Source: Hydrogenobacter sp.
GTDB lineage: Bacteria > Aquificota > Aquificia > Aquificales > Aquificaceae
Reading direction: 5' to 3'
Length of the DNA: 40,253 nt
NCBI GenBank assembly: GCA_028276405.1
Contig: JAPYWJ010000009.1
Span: forward strand, 1 to 40,253
Shown here: positions 7,850 through 40,230 of the stretch, piece by piece
Numbering within the stretch: the stretch's first letter is position 1
How the letters are laid out: each line of letters opens with the position of its first letter
The notes under the pieces: generated by a model
What the model was told of the DNA's origin: nothing
The model's database searches: none
What the model saw: the letters and a program-made list of their open reading frames with translations, nothing else
Made by a program: the position numbers and the translations under genes

Positions 7850-9804
7850 ACACCATACGCTTTTTGAGTGTGGACCAAGTAGAAAGAGCAAGGTCTGGCC
7901 ATCCTGGAATGCCTCTTGGTGCATCACACATAGCATACCTTGTATTTGATAGGTTTTTGAGATTTAACCCAAAGGACCCAAACTGGATAAACAGAGATAG
8001 GTTTGTGTTATCTGCAGGGCATGCCAGCGCTATGCTCTACTCACTCCTCTTTGTAATGGGATACGACCTTAGTCTTGAAGACCTAAAAGCCTTTAGGCAG
8101 CTAAACAGCAAAACACCCGGTCATCCAGAAAGCCACATAACACCCGGTGTAGAGGCTACTACCGGACCTTTGGGACAGGGTATAGGCAACGCGGTAGGTA
8201 TGGCTATTGCAGAGAAGTATCTATCAAACCTTTTTAACAGAGAGGGGTTTCCTATAATTGATCACTACACCTTTGCGTTGGTAAGCGATGGAGACTTAAT
8301 GGAGGGTGTCTCGTGCGAAGTAGCACAGCTTGCGGGACACTTTAAACTTGGTAAGCTAATAGTTATCTGGGATAACAACAGGATCTCTATAGATGGACCT
8401 ACATCTCTTGCGTGGTCTGAGGATGTGTTAAAAAGGTTTTCTGCTTTTGGTTGGCATGTACAGGCTGTGGAAGAGGGTTACAACTTAAAAGAGATAGAGG
8501 ACGCTATAAAGTCTGCAATGGAAGAAAAGGAAAAGCCTTCTTTTATATCCATCAGGACGCATATAGGATACGGCAGTCCCAAGCAGGATGACGCAAGCGT
8601 TCACGGTGCTCCCTTGGGTAAAGAGCTTGCCCTTGAAACTAAGCGTAAGTTTGGTTGGAGTGAGGAAGAGTTCCATGTGCCTGATGAAGTGTATGAGTAC
8701 AGAAAAGAGAAGATACAAAAAGGTGCAAAAATCCAACAAGAGTGGAACACCCTCTTTCAAGCTTACCAAGAAACCTACCCTGACCTTGCAGAAGAGCTCA
8801 TCAGCGCTTTTAAAGGTGAATGGGGAGAGGACTACAGGAAACATATACCCCTTTTTACAGAACCTATGGCTACGCGTCAGGCAAGTGGAAAAGTGCTAAA
8901 TGTCATAGCAAAACACATACCCACTATGATAGGAGGCTCTGCGGACCTTTCTGAATCCAACAACACTTACCTGCACGGTATGGGAGACTTTCTTGCGGAT
9001 AATCCAACAGGAAGGAACATACATTACGGTGTGAGAGAGCACGCTATGGGGACAATACTCAACGGTATGGCATATCACGGCGGAATACTTCCTTACGGTG
9101 GGACCTTTTTGATATTTTCAGATTATATGAGACCATCTATAAGGCTCGCAGCTATGTCAGGGCTTAAGGTCATATATGTCTTTACCCACGACTCTATAGG
9201 TTTGGGAGAAGACGGTCCTACACACCAACCTATAGAACAATTAAGTTCTTTACGGCTCATACCAAACCTATGGGTATTAAGGCCGGCAGATGCCAACGAA
9301 GTATCTATAGCGTGGGACATGGCTTTACAAAGAAAGGGTGGACCCGTTGCCATAATCCTAACAAGGCAGAAAGTACCTATTATAGACAGAAAAAAGTATT
9401 CCTCCTTTGAAGGTGCAAGAAAGGGTGCGTATGTTCTTGCGTATACTCAAGGTGAGCCAGATGTAATAATTTTTACAAGCGGCTCAGAGGTACATCCTTG
9501 CTTATCAGCCCTTGAGATATTAGAAAAGGAAGGTATAAAGGTAAAGCTTGTAAATATGTTTTCTTTTGAGGTTTTTGAGCTTCAAGACAATGAGTATAAA
9601 AGGCATGTGCTCACTCCTGAAGTTAAAAGGAGAGTAGCTGTAGAAGCAGGAAGGGGTATGTGTTGGTACAAGTATGTAGGAAGTGAAGGATTAGTCATAG
9701 GCATTGAGGAGTTCGGAAGGTCTGCCCCTGGTGATGTGCTGATGGAATACTTTGGCTTTACTGGTGAAAAGATAGCCAAAAAGATAAAAGAGTTTTACTT
9801 TTGA
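7825..9804 (+). CDS. tkt: Transketolase
   Basis: The 659-residue, full-length TPP enzyme exchanges two-carbon ketol units between sugar phosphates in the pentose phosphate network. Visible signatures are the N-terminal [15 protein letters not shown] block, the TPP motif from GDGDLMEG through WDNNRIS, the [16 protein letters not shown] segment and the pyrimidine-binding YGVREHAMG motif near residue 400. [15 protein letters not shown] and the C-terminal EAG...W...G segment also match. It starts inside the nuoG 3' end (25-bp overlap), so it is translationally linked to that gene. Its stop overlaps the convergent lpxC stop by 10 bp. Confidence 0.97.
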
Positions 9805-10628
9805 GATAACTCAAGGGTTTGGTGGAGTTTTAAGCGACCTTTCAGAAACTTGACAAATAGATAATTGAGCGTGTGGCCACCTCTGTAAGATACTATCCGC
9901 CCTTTTATCCTCTTTCCAATAAGAGCCAAGTCCCCTATAAGGTCCAAAAGTTTGTGTCTGAGGGGTTCATCTTCAGAGCGCATACCACCTTCGTTGTACA
10001 CAAAACCTTCACCTAACAGCAAGGCATTTGTCAGGCTTCCTCCTTTTGCCAAACCCTTTCTGCGCAAGTGTTCAAGCTCGTAATCATAACAAAAAGTTCT
10101 TGCAAAAACTATATCCTTTACATTTCCGTTAAACTCCACAAGCCTTTCTTCAAAAAATCCGTTGATACCTCCCACATAAGCTACCGAAAGGTTTTCGTGC
10201 GGTAGTGCCTTAATGTATCCTTTAGAGTTTCTTACCTCAAAACTTGAGTTGATCTCCAAGATATCAGCAAGCGTTGGTAAAACTATCACTTTATCCTTTA
10301 ACATTTTGTAGAAGTAATACCCGCTTCCGTCAAGAATTGGTACCTCAAAACCTTTTAAAAACTCAACAGTGGCATTGTCTATCCCTAACATAAAAAAGAC
10401 CGCCATAAGGTGCTCTACTGTTTTTATGATGATACCATCTTTACCCAAATCCGTTGAGTGGTCCGTATTTACCACAAACTCCAACTTTGCTGGCACATAG
10501 ACACCAGCTTTTAAAAACCTTATCCCTACATGCTCTTTCTCTGGATGCACCACTATTTTAGAATACTCACCTGAATGTATGCCTATACCTTCAAAAGAGA
10601 CGCTTTCTTTTAAAGTGCGCTGGTTCAT
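9795..10628 (-). CDS. lpxC: UDP-3-O-acyl-N-acetylglucosamine deacetylase
   Basis: The 277-residue zinc amidase catalyses the committed step of lipid A synthesis in the cytoplasm, showing a lipopolysaccharide-bearing outer membrane. It begins [15 protein letters not shown], the usual LpxC N-terminus. The zinc ligands are His73 in TVEHLMA and the His/Asp of [13 protein letters not shown]; the late [13 protein letters not shown] segment carries the catalytic His. The length matches the family (about 280-305, at the short end). It is the second gene after hemD (8-bp gap), transcribed from the repeat-element promoter at 11492-11520. Confidence 0.95.
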
Positions 10629-10636
10629 GTACTTTT

Positions 10637-11353
10637 TTAATGCAATCTTGATGCCAATGACTTTATTAAGCTCACTGCGCTCTCTACGCTTTGTTTTTCA
10701 GGCAAAAGACAGGATAGACCAGATAAGGATGTGAGTTCCTCTTTTGTAGTTTTGCCAATACACACTATCTTTTTTTTCTTTAAAAGCTTTGTGCCTTCAG
10801 GTTTTGGTAAATTTGCAAAAAAACCTTTAACCGCGGAAGGACTTGCAAAAAATATAAACTCCCCTGCGGAGAGCCTTTTCAAAAAGTCTTCTCTTTCGTA
10901 AAGTATGTGCTCAGTTGTATAAACATTCAAAGGATAAACACTAAAGCCCATATCCCTAAGCCATCGTATAAGCTCTTCCCGACCTTCTTGCGAACGCGGT
11001 AATAGCACCTTACCCCTCTTTTCCTTTTCCATTAAAAGCTTTATCTCTTGAGCATAATATTTCTCAGGAATTTGGTAAACTTTATATCCATAGCTCTCTA
11101 CCGCCTTTTTTACCGCTTCCCCCACCACTATTATCTTTTCATTCCCCCTTAACTTAGCTTTTTCAAAAAAATACTTCACCGCTTTTGCACTTTGGAATAT
11201 AACAAAATCAAAGGTTTCATCTATGGGTTCAAAATCAATGGGTGCGGTTTTTATCAAGGGTAGAGCAATTACGCCCAAACCTTCCCTTTCAAAAAGCTCT
11301 CTGTCTCTTTCTATGTCTTCTGGACTTCTGGTAAGTATAACCTTGTGCATCAT
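10637..11353 (-). CDS. hemD: Uroporphyrinogen-III synthase
   Basis: The 238-residue protein has the HemD pattern: N-terminal VILTRSPED, FDFVIFQSAKAVKYFF, then VVGEAVKKAVESYGY, LLPRSQEGREEL and FIFFASPSAVKGFF, with a C-terminal IGKTTKEEL block. It cyclises hydroxymethylbilane with inversion of ring D for heme, siroheme and cobamides. Sequence conservation in this family is low, but the motif order is convincing. The start is one of two adjacent ATG codons (11353 or 11350). The first is formed at the junction with the repeat element, whose terminal GGTGGAG is the Shine-Dalgarno. No other heme gene is adjacent. Confidence 0.88.
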   Translation of the reverse strand: MMHKVILTRSPEDIERDRELFEREGLGVIALPLIKTAPIDFEPIDETFDFVIFQSAKAVKYFFEKAKLRGNEKIIVVGEAVKKAVESYGYKVYQIPEKYYAQEIKLLMEKEKRGKVLLPRSQEGREELIRWLRDMGFSVYPLNVYTTEHILYEREDFLKRLSAGEFIFFASPSAVKGFFANLPKPEGTKLLKKKKIVCIGKTTKEELTSLSGLSCLLPEKQSVESAVSLIKSLASRLH

Positions 11354-11527
11354 GGTGAACTACTCCACCTTATAGAAGATGGAGCTTCCTGCTTCACAGA
11401 GGTTTTCACCTCTCCCCCCTGCGCCGGCCACACCCAGGCTTAACTTCGGACTGTTCCAGCCCTAGGTTCCTTGATTATCTGGACATCTATTAGTATAGTC
11501 CAAAATAAGAACCCTGTCAAGTCTTTC
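11352..11527 (-). mobile_element. Solo IS605/omega-RNA-like element, copy 1, driving hemD-lpxC
   Basis: The element is homologous to 40076-40230. Read on the minus strand it holds a consensus promoter, a conserved GAACAGTCCGAAGTTAAGCC block, a stem-loop AGAGGT-GAAA-ACCTCT (11413-11398), GAAGCAGGAAGC, a terminal hairpin CTCCATC...GGTGGAG (11384-11363) and then GTAGTTCACC at the hemD ATG. The GAAGCAGGAAGC / hairpin / GTAGTTCAC order resembles the right end and guide-RNA scaffold (omega RNA) at the 3' end of IS200/IS605 tnpB elements (family knowledge, recalled). No tnpA or tnpB is present. Compared with copy 2 it has about 12 extra bp (GC-rich, near 11420-11435). Confidence 0.6.
11492..11520 (-). 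promoter_or_regulatory. Consensus sigma-70 promoter inside repeat element copy 1
   Basis: On the minus strand TTGACA (11520-11515), a 17-nt spacer and TATACT (11497-11492) match the vegetative consensus. Transcription would start near 11485, giving a leader of about 130 nt before hemD. Confidence 0.75.
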
Positions 11528-11566
11528 GCAATTCATCTCCACCTTACAGAAGGTGGAGACTTCTTG
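11528..11566. repeat. Second, different IS605-type end hairpin
   Basis: A perfect 10-bp stem TCTCCACCTT/AAGGTGGAGA with loop ACAG (11536-11559) is flanked by GCAA...TTGC. On the minus strand it reads GCAAGAAG, hairpin, GATGAATTGC, the same plan as the element end next to it but with different terminal bases. It lies upstream of the hemD promoter and before the divergent sugar dehydrogenase gene. Confidence 0.5.
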
Positions 11567-11591
11567 CGGATTTGGGTTAAAAATATTCTAG

Positions 11592-37511: not shown

Positions 37512-38666
37512 TTACTTTATCTCAAGCTCAAACTCTACGCTTCCTGTAGGTGTTTTCTTTATCTTCTGAGGATTTATCTGGTTTACTACTTCTTCTTTAC
37601 CTTCACCACTAATAGTCAATATCCCATTTGAAAACTCTATGGAGTAGACCTTTATATCTGGCTTTAGCTTCTGGGGAAGTTCTGAAAGCTTCTTTGTAAG
37701 CTCGTAGGGTTCTTCTGCAGAAACCTTTGACCTTACCTGATCGTAAAGGGACACTATGGGCGTGCCTGGAAAGGTTTTTTTAAACTCTTCTCTTTCCAAA
37801 CTTCTCAAACCATCCCAAGACCAAAGCATGCCCGTCAAAATGTAAGACCCCAAGAAAAGCAAAACACTTGACCCTGCCAGCAGGGATGCTGTCTTTAACT
37901 GTTCCTTTGAAATTTCTCTTTCCACAAAGTCTGGGTATGGGTTTTTAACAAAAAACTTTAGACTTGCACCAAAAGCTGTGTTAAGGGCAGGATCACAGTA
38001 ATGATTTTTAAGAGTTTTTGAGAAAAGCTCCTCTATTCCTTTTATCTTGGAACCACCACCGCTTAAAAGCACTTGCTTGTCCGTTAGGTTAAAACCCAAA
38101 GAGCTTAGTATCTCTTGTATACCCCTTTTGGCTTCTTCAAGGTCTAAACCTTTTTCTTTCTTTAGCTCCTCTGCTCTTTGAAAGTCTAAGTTTCTTGTCT
38201 CAGCGATAATCTGTGTGAGGAAGTCTCCTCCTTTCATCAAAACACGGTAAGCATGTAGCAAACCTCCCTTTATGCTTACTATAGTAGTTTTTCTTCTTCC
38301 CATGTCTAAAAGATAGGCATCTTCACAACCCATTACTTGCAAAACTCTTGTAAGAGCAAATACCTCAAGTTCTACATTAATGCAGTCTTTAGAAGGGTAA
38401 TCCCTATACACCCCTAAGAAAACCTTATCTTGATATACGGATAAATCCCAATTTACCTTTCCGTACTTTTGTTCCACATCAAGGGCATAGAAGTTTTTTA
38501 TATGGCTTATCTTTCTTGAAAAGGCTTGTTCTATTCTCACCAAGCAAAAGTCCGAAGGTATTACACATATTTTTCTGCCTGTTTTTTGTGTAGGGTTCCA
38601 TGTGTTCTTCAAAAACTGCTTCTCAACACTGAATGTCTTTTTCCCATCCACTGCCGTGTATATCAT
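37512..38666 (-). CDS. PilM/GspL-like secretion or pilus assembly protein
   Basis: The 384-residue bitopic protein has an N-terminal actin-like ATPase fold (about 1-250) with LLDMGRRKTTIV and VLLSGGGSKIKGIEELF, and an EVFALTRVLQVMGCE element. One membrane segment at about 265-290 (TASLLAGSSVLLFLGSYILTG) follows, then a periplasmic C-terminal domain of about 90 residues. This is PilM fused to a PilN-like part, the plan of GspL. With the ATPase GspE upstream (4-bp overlap) it is the inner-membrane platform of a type II secretion or type IV pilus machine. No pilin or PilC gene is in the window. Confidence 0.72.
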   Translation of the reverse strand: MIYTAVDGKKTFSVEKQFLKNTWNPTQKTGRKICVIPSDFCLVRIEQAFSRKISHIKNFYALDVEQKYGKVNWDLSVYQDKVFLGVYRDYPSKDCINVELEVFALTRVLQVMGCEDAYLLDMGRRKTTIVSIKGGLLHAYRVLMKGGDFLTQIIAETRNLDFQRAEELKKEKGLDLEEAKRGIQEILSSLGFNLTDKQVLLSGGGSKIKGIEELFSKTLKNHYCDPALNTAFGASLKFFVKNPYPDFVEREISKEQLKTASLLAGSSVLLFLGSYILTGMLWSWDGLRSLEREEFKKTFPGTPIVSLYDQVRSKVSAEEPYELTKKLSELPQKLKPDIKVYSIEFSNGILTISGEGKEEVVNQINPQKIKKTPTGSVEFELEIK

Positions 38667-40075
38667 TCTTCCACTTTTACCGCTCTTATGAGTTCCTCAG
38701 GTGTTGTTATGCCCTTTATAACCTTTTCAATGCCGTCCTCGTACATGGTTCTAAAGCCTGACTCTTTGGCTTTCTTTCTTATTTCGTTGGCATCTTGAGT
38801 TTTTATAATGAGTTGCTTTAGGTCATAGCTAAGCTCCAAAACTTCGTAAATGCCTGTCCTTCCCCTATAACCTGTTCCCATACACATATCACATCCCTTA
38901 CCTCTATAAAAAAGGTATGTTCCTTCAAGTCCAAGCTGGGATAGTTCTTCCTGTGTAGGTTCGTAAGGTTCTTTGCAATATTCACAGACTTTTCTCACGA
39001 GCCTTTGGGCAAGCACACCTTCCAAAGAAGAAGCTATAAGAAAGGGCTCTATGCCTAGATCAGAAAGCCTAGTAATGGCAGAGGGTGCATCGTTAGTATG
39101 CAGCGTGGAAAGCACCAAGTGTCCTGTGAGCGCCGCATGAACCGCTATTTGAGCTGTTTCGCTGTCTCTTATTTCCCCTACCATTATTATGTCCGGGTCT
39201 TGTCTTAGGATGGCTCTTAGCCCGCTGGCAAAGGTTAGTCCCACCTTTGGATTTACCTGTATCTGGCTAACTCCCTTTACCTGATACTCAGGTGGGTCTT
39301 CTATGGTTATTATGTTCTTCTCAGGACTTTTTACATGGAGGATCATGGCATATAGGGTTGTGCTTTTCCCCGCGCCTGTAGGTCCCGTAGCTAACACTAT
39401 GCCGTAGGGCTTTTTGGCAAGTCTCTTTACCTTTTCAAGATCATGTAAAGAAAGTCCCAGCTCCTCAAGAGTTAGCATACTTCCAGATCTGTCAAGTAGT
39501 CTAAGCACCGCTCTTTCTCCAAAAGTGGTAGGAACTATGGATACCCTTATATCCAAATCCCTTTTACCTATCCTGACTCTTATCTTTCCATCCTGAGGAA
39601 CTCTCCTTTCTGCAACATCCAAGTTGGCAAGTACCTTTATGCGTGAAATGACAGATTCATGCAGAGAGAGGGGTATACTCATGTAATCGTGAAGTCTTCC
39701 ATCAAGCCGAAACCTCACAAAGGACACATCTTCGTAAGGCTCTATGTGTATATCAGAAGCAGAAAGGGTGGTAGCTTTTATAAGTGCAGAGTTCACAAAA
39801 CCTACCGCTGGGCTCTTTTCCTCCTCAAGAAGTATATCCTTTTGCTCTCTGTCTTCTTCCGCAGCATTTTCTATATATACATCTTCCTGTGCAAGCCTCT
39901 TTTGTAGCTCTTTGGAAAACTCTTCTTCTTCAACTTCCAACACCTCAACGCTTTTACCAGTGATAAACCTTATTTCTTCCACAGAAAAGACATCATAACC
40001 TTTGGGAACAAGCAGTCTTATACGGTGTTGGTCCTCCTCAATGGGTATGAGCCTGTATGTTTTTACTATGTCCAT
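38663..40075 (-). CDS. gspE: Type II secretion / type IV pilus assembly ATPase
   Basis: The 470-residue hexameric ATPase has Walker A TGPTGAGKSTTLYAM, an Asp box in IEDPPEYQVKG, Walker B PDIIMVGEIRDSETA and the His box LVLSTLHTNDA. The C-terminal zinc-binding tetracysteine (CEYC...CDMC) is typical of GspE/PilB. The N-terminal domain is short (about 100 residues). Start ATG 40075 follows GGTGGAG, contributed by the repeat element at 40076-40230, whose consensus promoter should drive gspE, the PilM-like gene and the glycosyltransferase. Confidence 0.93.
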   Translation of the reverse strand: MDIVKTYRLIPIEEDQHRIRLLVPKGYDVFSVEEIRFITGKSVEVLEVEEEEFSKELQKRLAQEDVYIENAAEEDREQKDILLEEEKSPAVGFVNSALIKATTLSASDIHIEPYEDVSFVRFRLDGRLHDYMSIPLSLHESVISRIKVLANLDVAERRVPQDGKIRVRIGKRDLDIRVSIVPTTFGERAVLRLLDRSGSMLTLEELGLSLHDLEKVKRLAKKPYGIVLATGPTGAGKSTTLYAMILHVKSPEKNIITIEDPPEYQVKGVSQIQVNPKVGLTFASGLRAILRQDPDIIMVGEIRDSETAQIAVHAALTGHLVLSTLHTNDAPSAITRLSDLGIEPFLIASSLEGVLAQRLVRKVCEYCKEPYEPTQEELSQLGLEGTYLFYRGKGCDMCMGTGYRGRTGIYEVLELSYDLKQLIIKTQDANEIRKKAKESGFRTMYEDGIEKVIKGITTPEELIRAVKVEE

Positions 40076-40230
40076 ATGGTCAACTACTCCACCTTATAAA
40101 ATAGAAGCTTCCTGCTTTACAGAGGCTTTTGCCTCTCCACAGGTTTAACTTCGGGTTGCTCCAATTTTAGGTTCTTTGATTATCGGTCTATTAGTATAGT
40201 CCAAAATAGGAGTCCTGTCAAGTCTTCACA
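40076..40230 (-). mobile_element. Solo IS605/omega-RNA-like element, copy 2, driving gspE
   Basis: The copy is homologous to 11352-11527 over the whole length, from GAAGACTTGACAGG to GTAGTTGACCAT. The stem-loop AGAGGC-AAAA-GCCTCT (40136-40121) differs from copy 1 by a compensated U-A to C-G closing pair. The terminal hairpin is decayed (only CTTC pairs with GGAG), leaving the Shine-Dalgarno GGTGGAG more open than in copy 1. No transposase or tnpB is seen; sequence beyond 40253 is unavailable. Confidence 0.6.
40193..40221 (-). promoter_or_regulatory. Consensus sigma-70 promoter inside repeat element copy 2
   Basis: On the minus strand TTGACA (40221-40216), a 17-nt spacer and TATACT (40198-40193) are identical in layout to copy 1. 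The leader to the gspE ATG would be about 110 nt. Confidence 0.75.

Follow-up and report, generated by a model that had tools for sequence, protein, structure and literature searches.

The 222-bp unit directly upstream of hemD, on the minus strand of the 40,253-nucleotide stretch of Hydrogenobacter sp. DNA that was analysed (the window), is by sequence comparison a complete IS200/IS605-type element without tnpB (a solo element), and it is probably a guide-RNA gene for a TnpB protein made elsewhere in the genome as well as the likely promoter and leader of hemD-lpxC. TnpB is usually studied together with its guide RNA in one transcript. If the present interpretation is true, gene-less units, many in a genome and with a conserved promoter and 5' hairpin of their own, occur throughout the phylum, and guide RNA and nuclease are uncoupled, in a CRISPR-like manner, in very simple transposons. 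The hemD unit would then be a recent and testable case of a guide-RNA gene that becomes promoter and leader of essential genes, with the state before insertion preserved in sister species.

Borders, copies and the tnpB element

A sequence-only reading of this DNA had recognised the unit, which is real, but had made it too short, with an extent of 176 bp (11352-11527) that ended exactly on the hemD start codon. The ends of other copies and the empty sites place the borders at 11576 and 11355. The shorter version includes the promoter and the 3' block but omits the left-end hairpin (11558-11537), and the unit stops two bases before the A of the first ATG, the C at 11354 being flank. The promoter was correctly described: TTGACA (11520-11515) and TATACT (11497-11492) are separated by 17 nt on the minus strand and agree with the consensus in 11 of 12 positions. 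GAAGCAGGAAGC, the hairpin and GTAGTTCACC are all present as well, while the stem over GGTGGAG, earlier given as 7 bp, has 9-10 bp when folded (Table 1).

Table 1. Features of the hemD unit and its surroundings in the window
Feature	Position	Strand	Basis
Complete solo (tnpB-less) IS200/IS605-type element, 222 bp	11355-11576	-	Borders from two sister-species empty sites and the ends of other copies
Target motif TTTAA beside the left end; predicted to be the empty site's TAM	11577-11581	-	Sequence comparison
Left-end hairpin CTCCACCTT-CTGT-AAGGTGGAG	11537-11558	-	Sequence
Promoter TTGACA-N17-TATACT	11492-11520	-	Promoter scan; same place in solos of several genera
5' leader hairpin GTCCA[GATAATCAA]GGAAC	11466-11484	-	Other solos have the loop GAUARYCAA and a covarying stem
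Omega-RNA scaffold core and right end	11355-11464	-	Covariance model R1, E 6.8e-17 (the hemD copy is itself among the sequences used to build R1)
Right-end hairpin with SD-like GGTGGAG (11369-11363) in its 3' arm	11362-11385	-	Folding at 37, 70 and 80 C; covariation
Predicted 16-nt guide CATGATGCACAAGGTT, host flank overlapping the hemD start	11339-11354	-	Analogy with ISDra2
hemD (uroporphyrinogen-III synthase)	10637-11353	-	PF02602
lpxC, 8 bp downstream of hemD	9795-10628	-	PF03331
Second solo copy, left end lost, before the pilB/gspE-like gene	40079-40226	-	BLAST; sister empty site
pilB/gspE-like gene	38663-40075		T2SSE domain

TTTAA stands directly before every complete copy inspected in the same genome, and it is also found in the hemD and pilB empty sites. 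The left-end hairpin recurs at the left ends of other copies, that of a tnpB element (L010) included; the stem of the leader hairpin is partly broken in the hemD copy when aligned with the others, and the right-end hairpin has the final bases GTAGTTCAC.

The sequence-only reading knew of two copies. BLAST of the hemD unit against its own genome gives 27 places, several of them near-full, with five further solo copies and one intact tnpB element. The full or near-full solos lie on contigs C4 (hemD, and the pilB copy at 40079-40226), C16 with C32, C49, C33 and C50. The C16 and C32 matches (L002, L009) are the halves of one solo cut by another IS: they have CGAAAGACT in common, read as a 9-bp duplication, and a nearby open frame carries a DDE transposase domain. 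The C50 copy (L005) has had its promoter deleted, yet is identical to the hemD copy over 104 bp, and two minimal copies of 47-48 bp (L012, L016) have kept only their ends. Where genes converge on a right end (L003, L012, L028), the element supplies their C-terminus and an in-frame stop, with the tail VNYSTL or VNYPTL.

The tnpB element, on C33, has left end L010, right end L007 and a TnpB of 408 aa free of internal stops. Both ends of the hemD unit match it, the right end with 96% identity over 45 nt, and the scaffold core of the unit is homologous to the 3' end of tnpB plus the right end. The earlier suggestion that the 3' block is the right end and guide scaffold of an IS605-type tnpB element is thereby confirmed, in a genome where one tnpB gene does adjoin this same right end. 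Neither of the two sequence findings that were to count against it, a lack of additional copies and of a tnpB right end that matches, was obtained. The C33 TnpB has HTH, OrfB_IS605 and TNB domains, aligns with the TnpB structures 8h1j and 8bf8, and keeps the catalytic residues D189, E276 and D357 in the expected motifs; its sole matches in a scan of named genomes were in Thermoanaerobacter wiegelii (71%) and in a Clostridiales MAG (52%). Two further proteins of 529 and 517 aa (L029 on C37, L031 on C49) give weak TNB-domain matches, the latter below the curated cut-off, and apparently belong to other TnpB lineages.

A search for the Y1 transposase (PF01797) gave no match in the genome, although the enzyme is present in some relatives. 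Y1 is not required of a non-autonomous IS200/IS605 member, but present mobility of the hemD unit is unsupported. Genome G030 likewise has many solo and tnpB elements and no recognisable Y1 transposase.

Scaffold and solo units across the phylum

An alignment that joins solo and tnpB-linked right ends supports a fold with a first stem-loop, an enclosing CCUG/CAGG helix and the right-end hairpin. In this alignment 94.6% of cells are paired, eight pairs have two-sided changes, and the fold score, which none of 500 shuffles reached, is far above that of slid controls. When solos are taken alone, the enclosing helix still varies from CCUG/CAGG to CCCG/CGGG, that is, the scaffold helices covary without help from tnpB-linked copies. 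Covariation of the right-end hairpin by itself is no proof of a role as RNA, because this hairpin is also a TnpA-type feature of DNA, and the conserved hairpins could in part be due to selection by TnpA on single-stranded DNA and not on RNA. The covariation of the inner helices is not open to that explanation.

The scaffold model R1 has 103 matches in 28 of the 64 genomes of the family, and in the phylum the scaffold family extends to 66 of 136 genomes and 24 of 30 genera. Rfam had no match for the hemD unit at the gathering threshold and nothing usable at a loose one, where an SscA match at E 0.95 was taken as chance.

Eighty model matches were taken with their flanks and sorted into solo and tnpB-linked copies. 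About 32 have a TnpB zinc-finger or RDxN motif just upstream, where linkage was assigned by the zinc-finger rule, a rule of thumb, since a stricter motif rule under-counted linked copies. Among the rest are many compact units in which left-end hairpin, promoter, leader, core and right end follow one another; the remainder show decay, truncation at a contig end or a diverged type, which precludes an exact ratio of solos to tnpB-linked copies. A single genome, G008, accounts for over a dozen solos, which differ in their flanks.

In most solos, from several genera, about 7 nt (at most 11) separate the end of the promoter from a hairpin with the loop GAUARYCAA, which should place this hairpin at the 5' terminus of the RNA. 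The loop is present in its exact form in 25 solos, which represent six genera, and in none of the clearly tnpB-linked copies; in G120, which belongs to a different family of the phylum, a related leader stands upstream of a solo. The leader stem covaries, with a covariation score that none of 500 shuffles matched; the count of pairs with two-sided changes is by itself not significant (132 of 500 shuffles). This solo-specific leader hairpin is the least expected part of the case. Because this hairpin, which follows the promoter in many solos, is absent from clearly tnpB-linked copies, the solos look, in sequence, like a lineage of their own rather than like casual deletions of tnpB elements.

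It could instead be supposed that the unit is a passive MITE or PATE, a deletion derivative once mobilised by TnpA, the RNA features of which were inherited from tnpB and the guide of which has no present use. Such a derivative would fit a genome without TnpA and copies of about 48 bp reduced to their ends, and it would fit L005, from which it appears that loss of the promoter is tolerated, as this copy lacks it and is still identical to the hemD copy over the 104 bp. A passive element does not, however, account for the conservation across genera of a promoter and of a leader hairpin that is missing from tnpB-linked copies and has a covarying stem, nor for scaffold helices that covary in solos alone, and we consider it rather unlikely.

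Insertion at hemD and the new leader

In the sister species G015 and G006, with hemD sequences 89% and 85% identical to the present one, the hemD locus is uninterrupted. It there reads TTTTTAACATAATGC, while the present genome has TTTTTAA, the element and then CATGATGC; the empty site is thus TTTAA followed by CATAATGCAC, and the insertion is precise and without target duplication. Precise empty sites in sister species exist also for the pilB copy (TTTAACACATGG), for L003, L004 and L005, and for L002 (TTTTTAATGAGG), whose insertion broke up an overlap of stop and start codons. L002 also split the ATG of a membrane-protein gene, which leaves CTG or an upstream in-frame GTG as start. Among the five genomes of the genus, the hemD copy is confined to its own species and absent from hemD in the other four, and the insertion is by this comparison recent.

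L001, L002 and the pilB copy sit on starts and L003-L005 after TAA stop codons; most other copies are away from start codons, and the copies adjoin unrelated genes. Of the 23 intergenic TTTAA sites in the window, 1 abuts a start; inclusion of the two occupied sites makes this 3 of 25, and for the solos of this genome the figure is 3 of 6, so that enrichment at start codons is weak.

At hemD the insertion has separated the start codon from TTTAA and moved the old promoter region away, and hemD-lpxC is now most likely expressed from the promoter, leader and GGTGGAG of the unit itself. The region has three promoter-like sites, where 0.4 are expected in shuffles, and no terminator-like site was found between promoter and hemD, so that a reading of the unit as a terminator was set aside. 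GGTGGAG, in the right-end hairpin, lies 9 nt before the first ATG of hemD, and because the hairpin around it is predicted to be stable even at 70-80 C, translation of hemD may be limited. The start codon in the sisters corresponds to the second ATG (11350), the first ATG (11353) being ATA in both; the empty site of G015 has TATAAT before the gene, where the present genome has TAGAAT, 222 bp further off. The extra ATG and TAGAAT would fit an adaptation to the new leader, though both are single-base changes.

The pilB copy, where the unit likewise abuts the start codon, should in the same way serve as promoter, leader and Shine-Dalgarno source. Its promoter hexamers and the SD arm are kept and the opposite arm of the hairpin is mutated, a pattern of conservation that is suggestive, if based on few positions. 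In G026, a left end, a promoter and a leader remnant stand before a polysaccharide-export-like gene. The hemD, pilB and G026 cases, few as they are, point to repeated take-over of solos as promoter and leader. Type II right ends, for their part, terminate in GGAGGTCAC, with a full Shine-Dalgarno sequence outside the hairpin, which in G027 (L142) precedes the start of a deformylase-like gene by 7 nt.

The sequence-only reading had set a guide RNA used in trans against a transposon end co-opted as promoter. The promoter is, however, a standard part of solo units, and the two readings are not alternatives, because the solo's own promoter, landed on the hemD start, now faces hemD. One may go further and regard the unit as a host-domesticated leader, retained at hemD for its promoter and for a hairpin that sequesters the RBS, with no remaining role as a guide; its position next to the start codon, its consensus promoter, the SD within a stable hairpin and the pilB and G026 copies that look taken over would all agree with this. 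We hold it to be very unlikely, as the hemD copy occurs in one of five species of the genus and has an intact scaffold and right end, while most other copies are away from start codons and the excess at starts is weak. A riboswitch or other cis-regulatory leader was dropped because the same unit adjoins unrelated genes and lies at 3' ends; it is absent from hemD in the four other genomes of the genus searched.

Guide, target and relation to known systems

In ISDra2 about 16 nt of flank form the last part of the guide RNA, and the TAM is the insertion motif (PMC8612924). To apply this to hemD, take the unit to be a non-autonomous transposon of the IS200/IS605 type that has shrunk to a guide-RNA gene. 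Transcription from its sigma-70-type promoter would, by the sequence, run out through the right end, and the 3' end of the RNA would therefore be host flank, that is, the guide. TnpB from another locus, such as the 408-aa protein of C33, would load the RNA in trans, and cleavage by the complex would fall on a chromosome that has lost the unit by excision, at TTTAA followed by CATGATGCACAAGGTT; only such chromosomes would be cut, because the empty site alone joins TTTAA to the guide sequence. Repair from a filled copy would then restore the element. With no TnpA/Y1 in the genome, the unit may no longer be excised nor need retention, and the function may be a relic. Recognition of solo RNA by the C33 TnpB is less than certain, because most solos have a short or otherwise different arm where the tnpB-linked RNA has its long scaffold arm.

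The guide is identical, apart from one base, to the sequence beside TTTAA in the sister empty site. When up to three mismatches are allowed, its only match in its own genome is the junction of the element itself, which would be spared because it has TTCAC in place of the TTTAA TAM, and no TTTAA-flanked target was found there. The earlier proposal that the hemD start region is the guide thus stands as an overlap in sequence, but the overlap is simply the insertion flank, and the TAM-bearing target is the empty site, which this genome does not contain. The guide's match to the hemD start could also suggest a TldR-like repressor, in which TnpB and guide bind the hemD start region and control hemD. 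With neither a TTTAA-flanked match nor an inactivated RuvC, the C33 TnpB retaining its catalytic residues and the sole match being the junction with TTCAC, such a system can hardly be what is present.

According to one report, TnpB processes its RNA out of a longer transcript (PMC10278001). If TnpB trims the RNA of the hemD unit, the hemD start would leave the message, and TnpB and the ribosome would therefore compete for one RNA. We would entertain only tentatively, and with more doubt than belief, the wider proposal that solos are old, separately propagating guide-RNA genes marked by their 5' hairpin, a scattered guide set for TnpBs from other loci, and that, once a solo has come to lie on a start codon, TnpB loads and trims the RNA in competition with translation, the amount of TnpB thus setting the expression of the essential hemD-lpxC operon.

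Trans-acting omega-RNAs of IscB, guide RNAs coded apart from their nuclease, were reportedly described by Altae-Tran in 2021. They belong to the IscB/HNH family whereas the hemD solo belongs with TnpB, so that the likeness lies in a guide RNA apart from the nuclease. ISDra2 resembles the solos in a guide RNA that combines the element's 3' part with about 16 nt of flank, in a TAM equal to the insertion motif and in a related TnpB with the same catalytic residues, but its RNA comes from the tnpB-bearing element itself, while the hemD solo has no tnpB and has its own promoter and leader hairpin; the motifs are TTGAT and TTTAA, respectively (PMC8612924). In Halanaerobium hydrogeniformans, a 271-nt PATE-like element whose description predates knowledge of guide RNAs similarly has IS605 ends, the last part of tnpB, a full right end and no intact gene; it is a single copy with no promoter or leader reported, whereas the solos have many copies, a shared promoter and leader, and a phylum-wide distribution (PMC7290912). 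The RNA-guided repressors TldR share with the hemD unit the TnpB lineage and a guide RNA that touches host genes, but the C33 TnpB keeps its catalytic residues and its own genome has no TAM-bearing host target (PMC13418256). IStrons, too, are IS605-type elements, with an RNA that has a second fate in a host transcript; the hemD solo has no group I intron, and the second fate is that of a 5' leader (PMC4227781). In a partial coverage of the literature, none of the papers dealt with solo TnpB guide units.

Elsewhere in the window, positions 1877-2686 hold a GTTCCAAGCCCACCGTGTGGGAT-like repeat four times, with spacings of 67-71 bp among three of the copies; this looks like a short CRISPR-type array.
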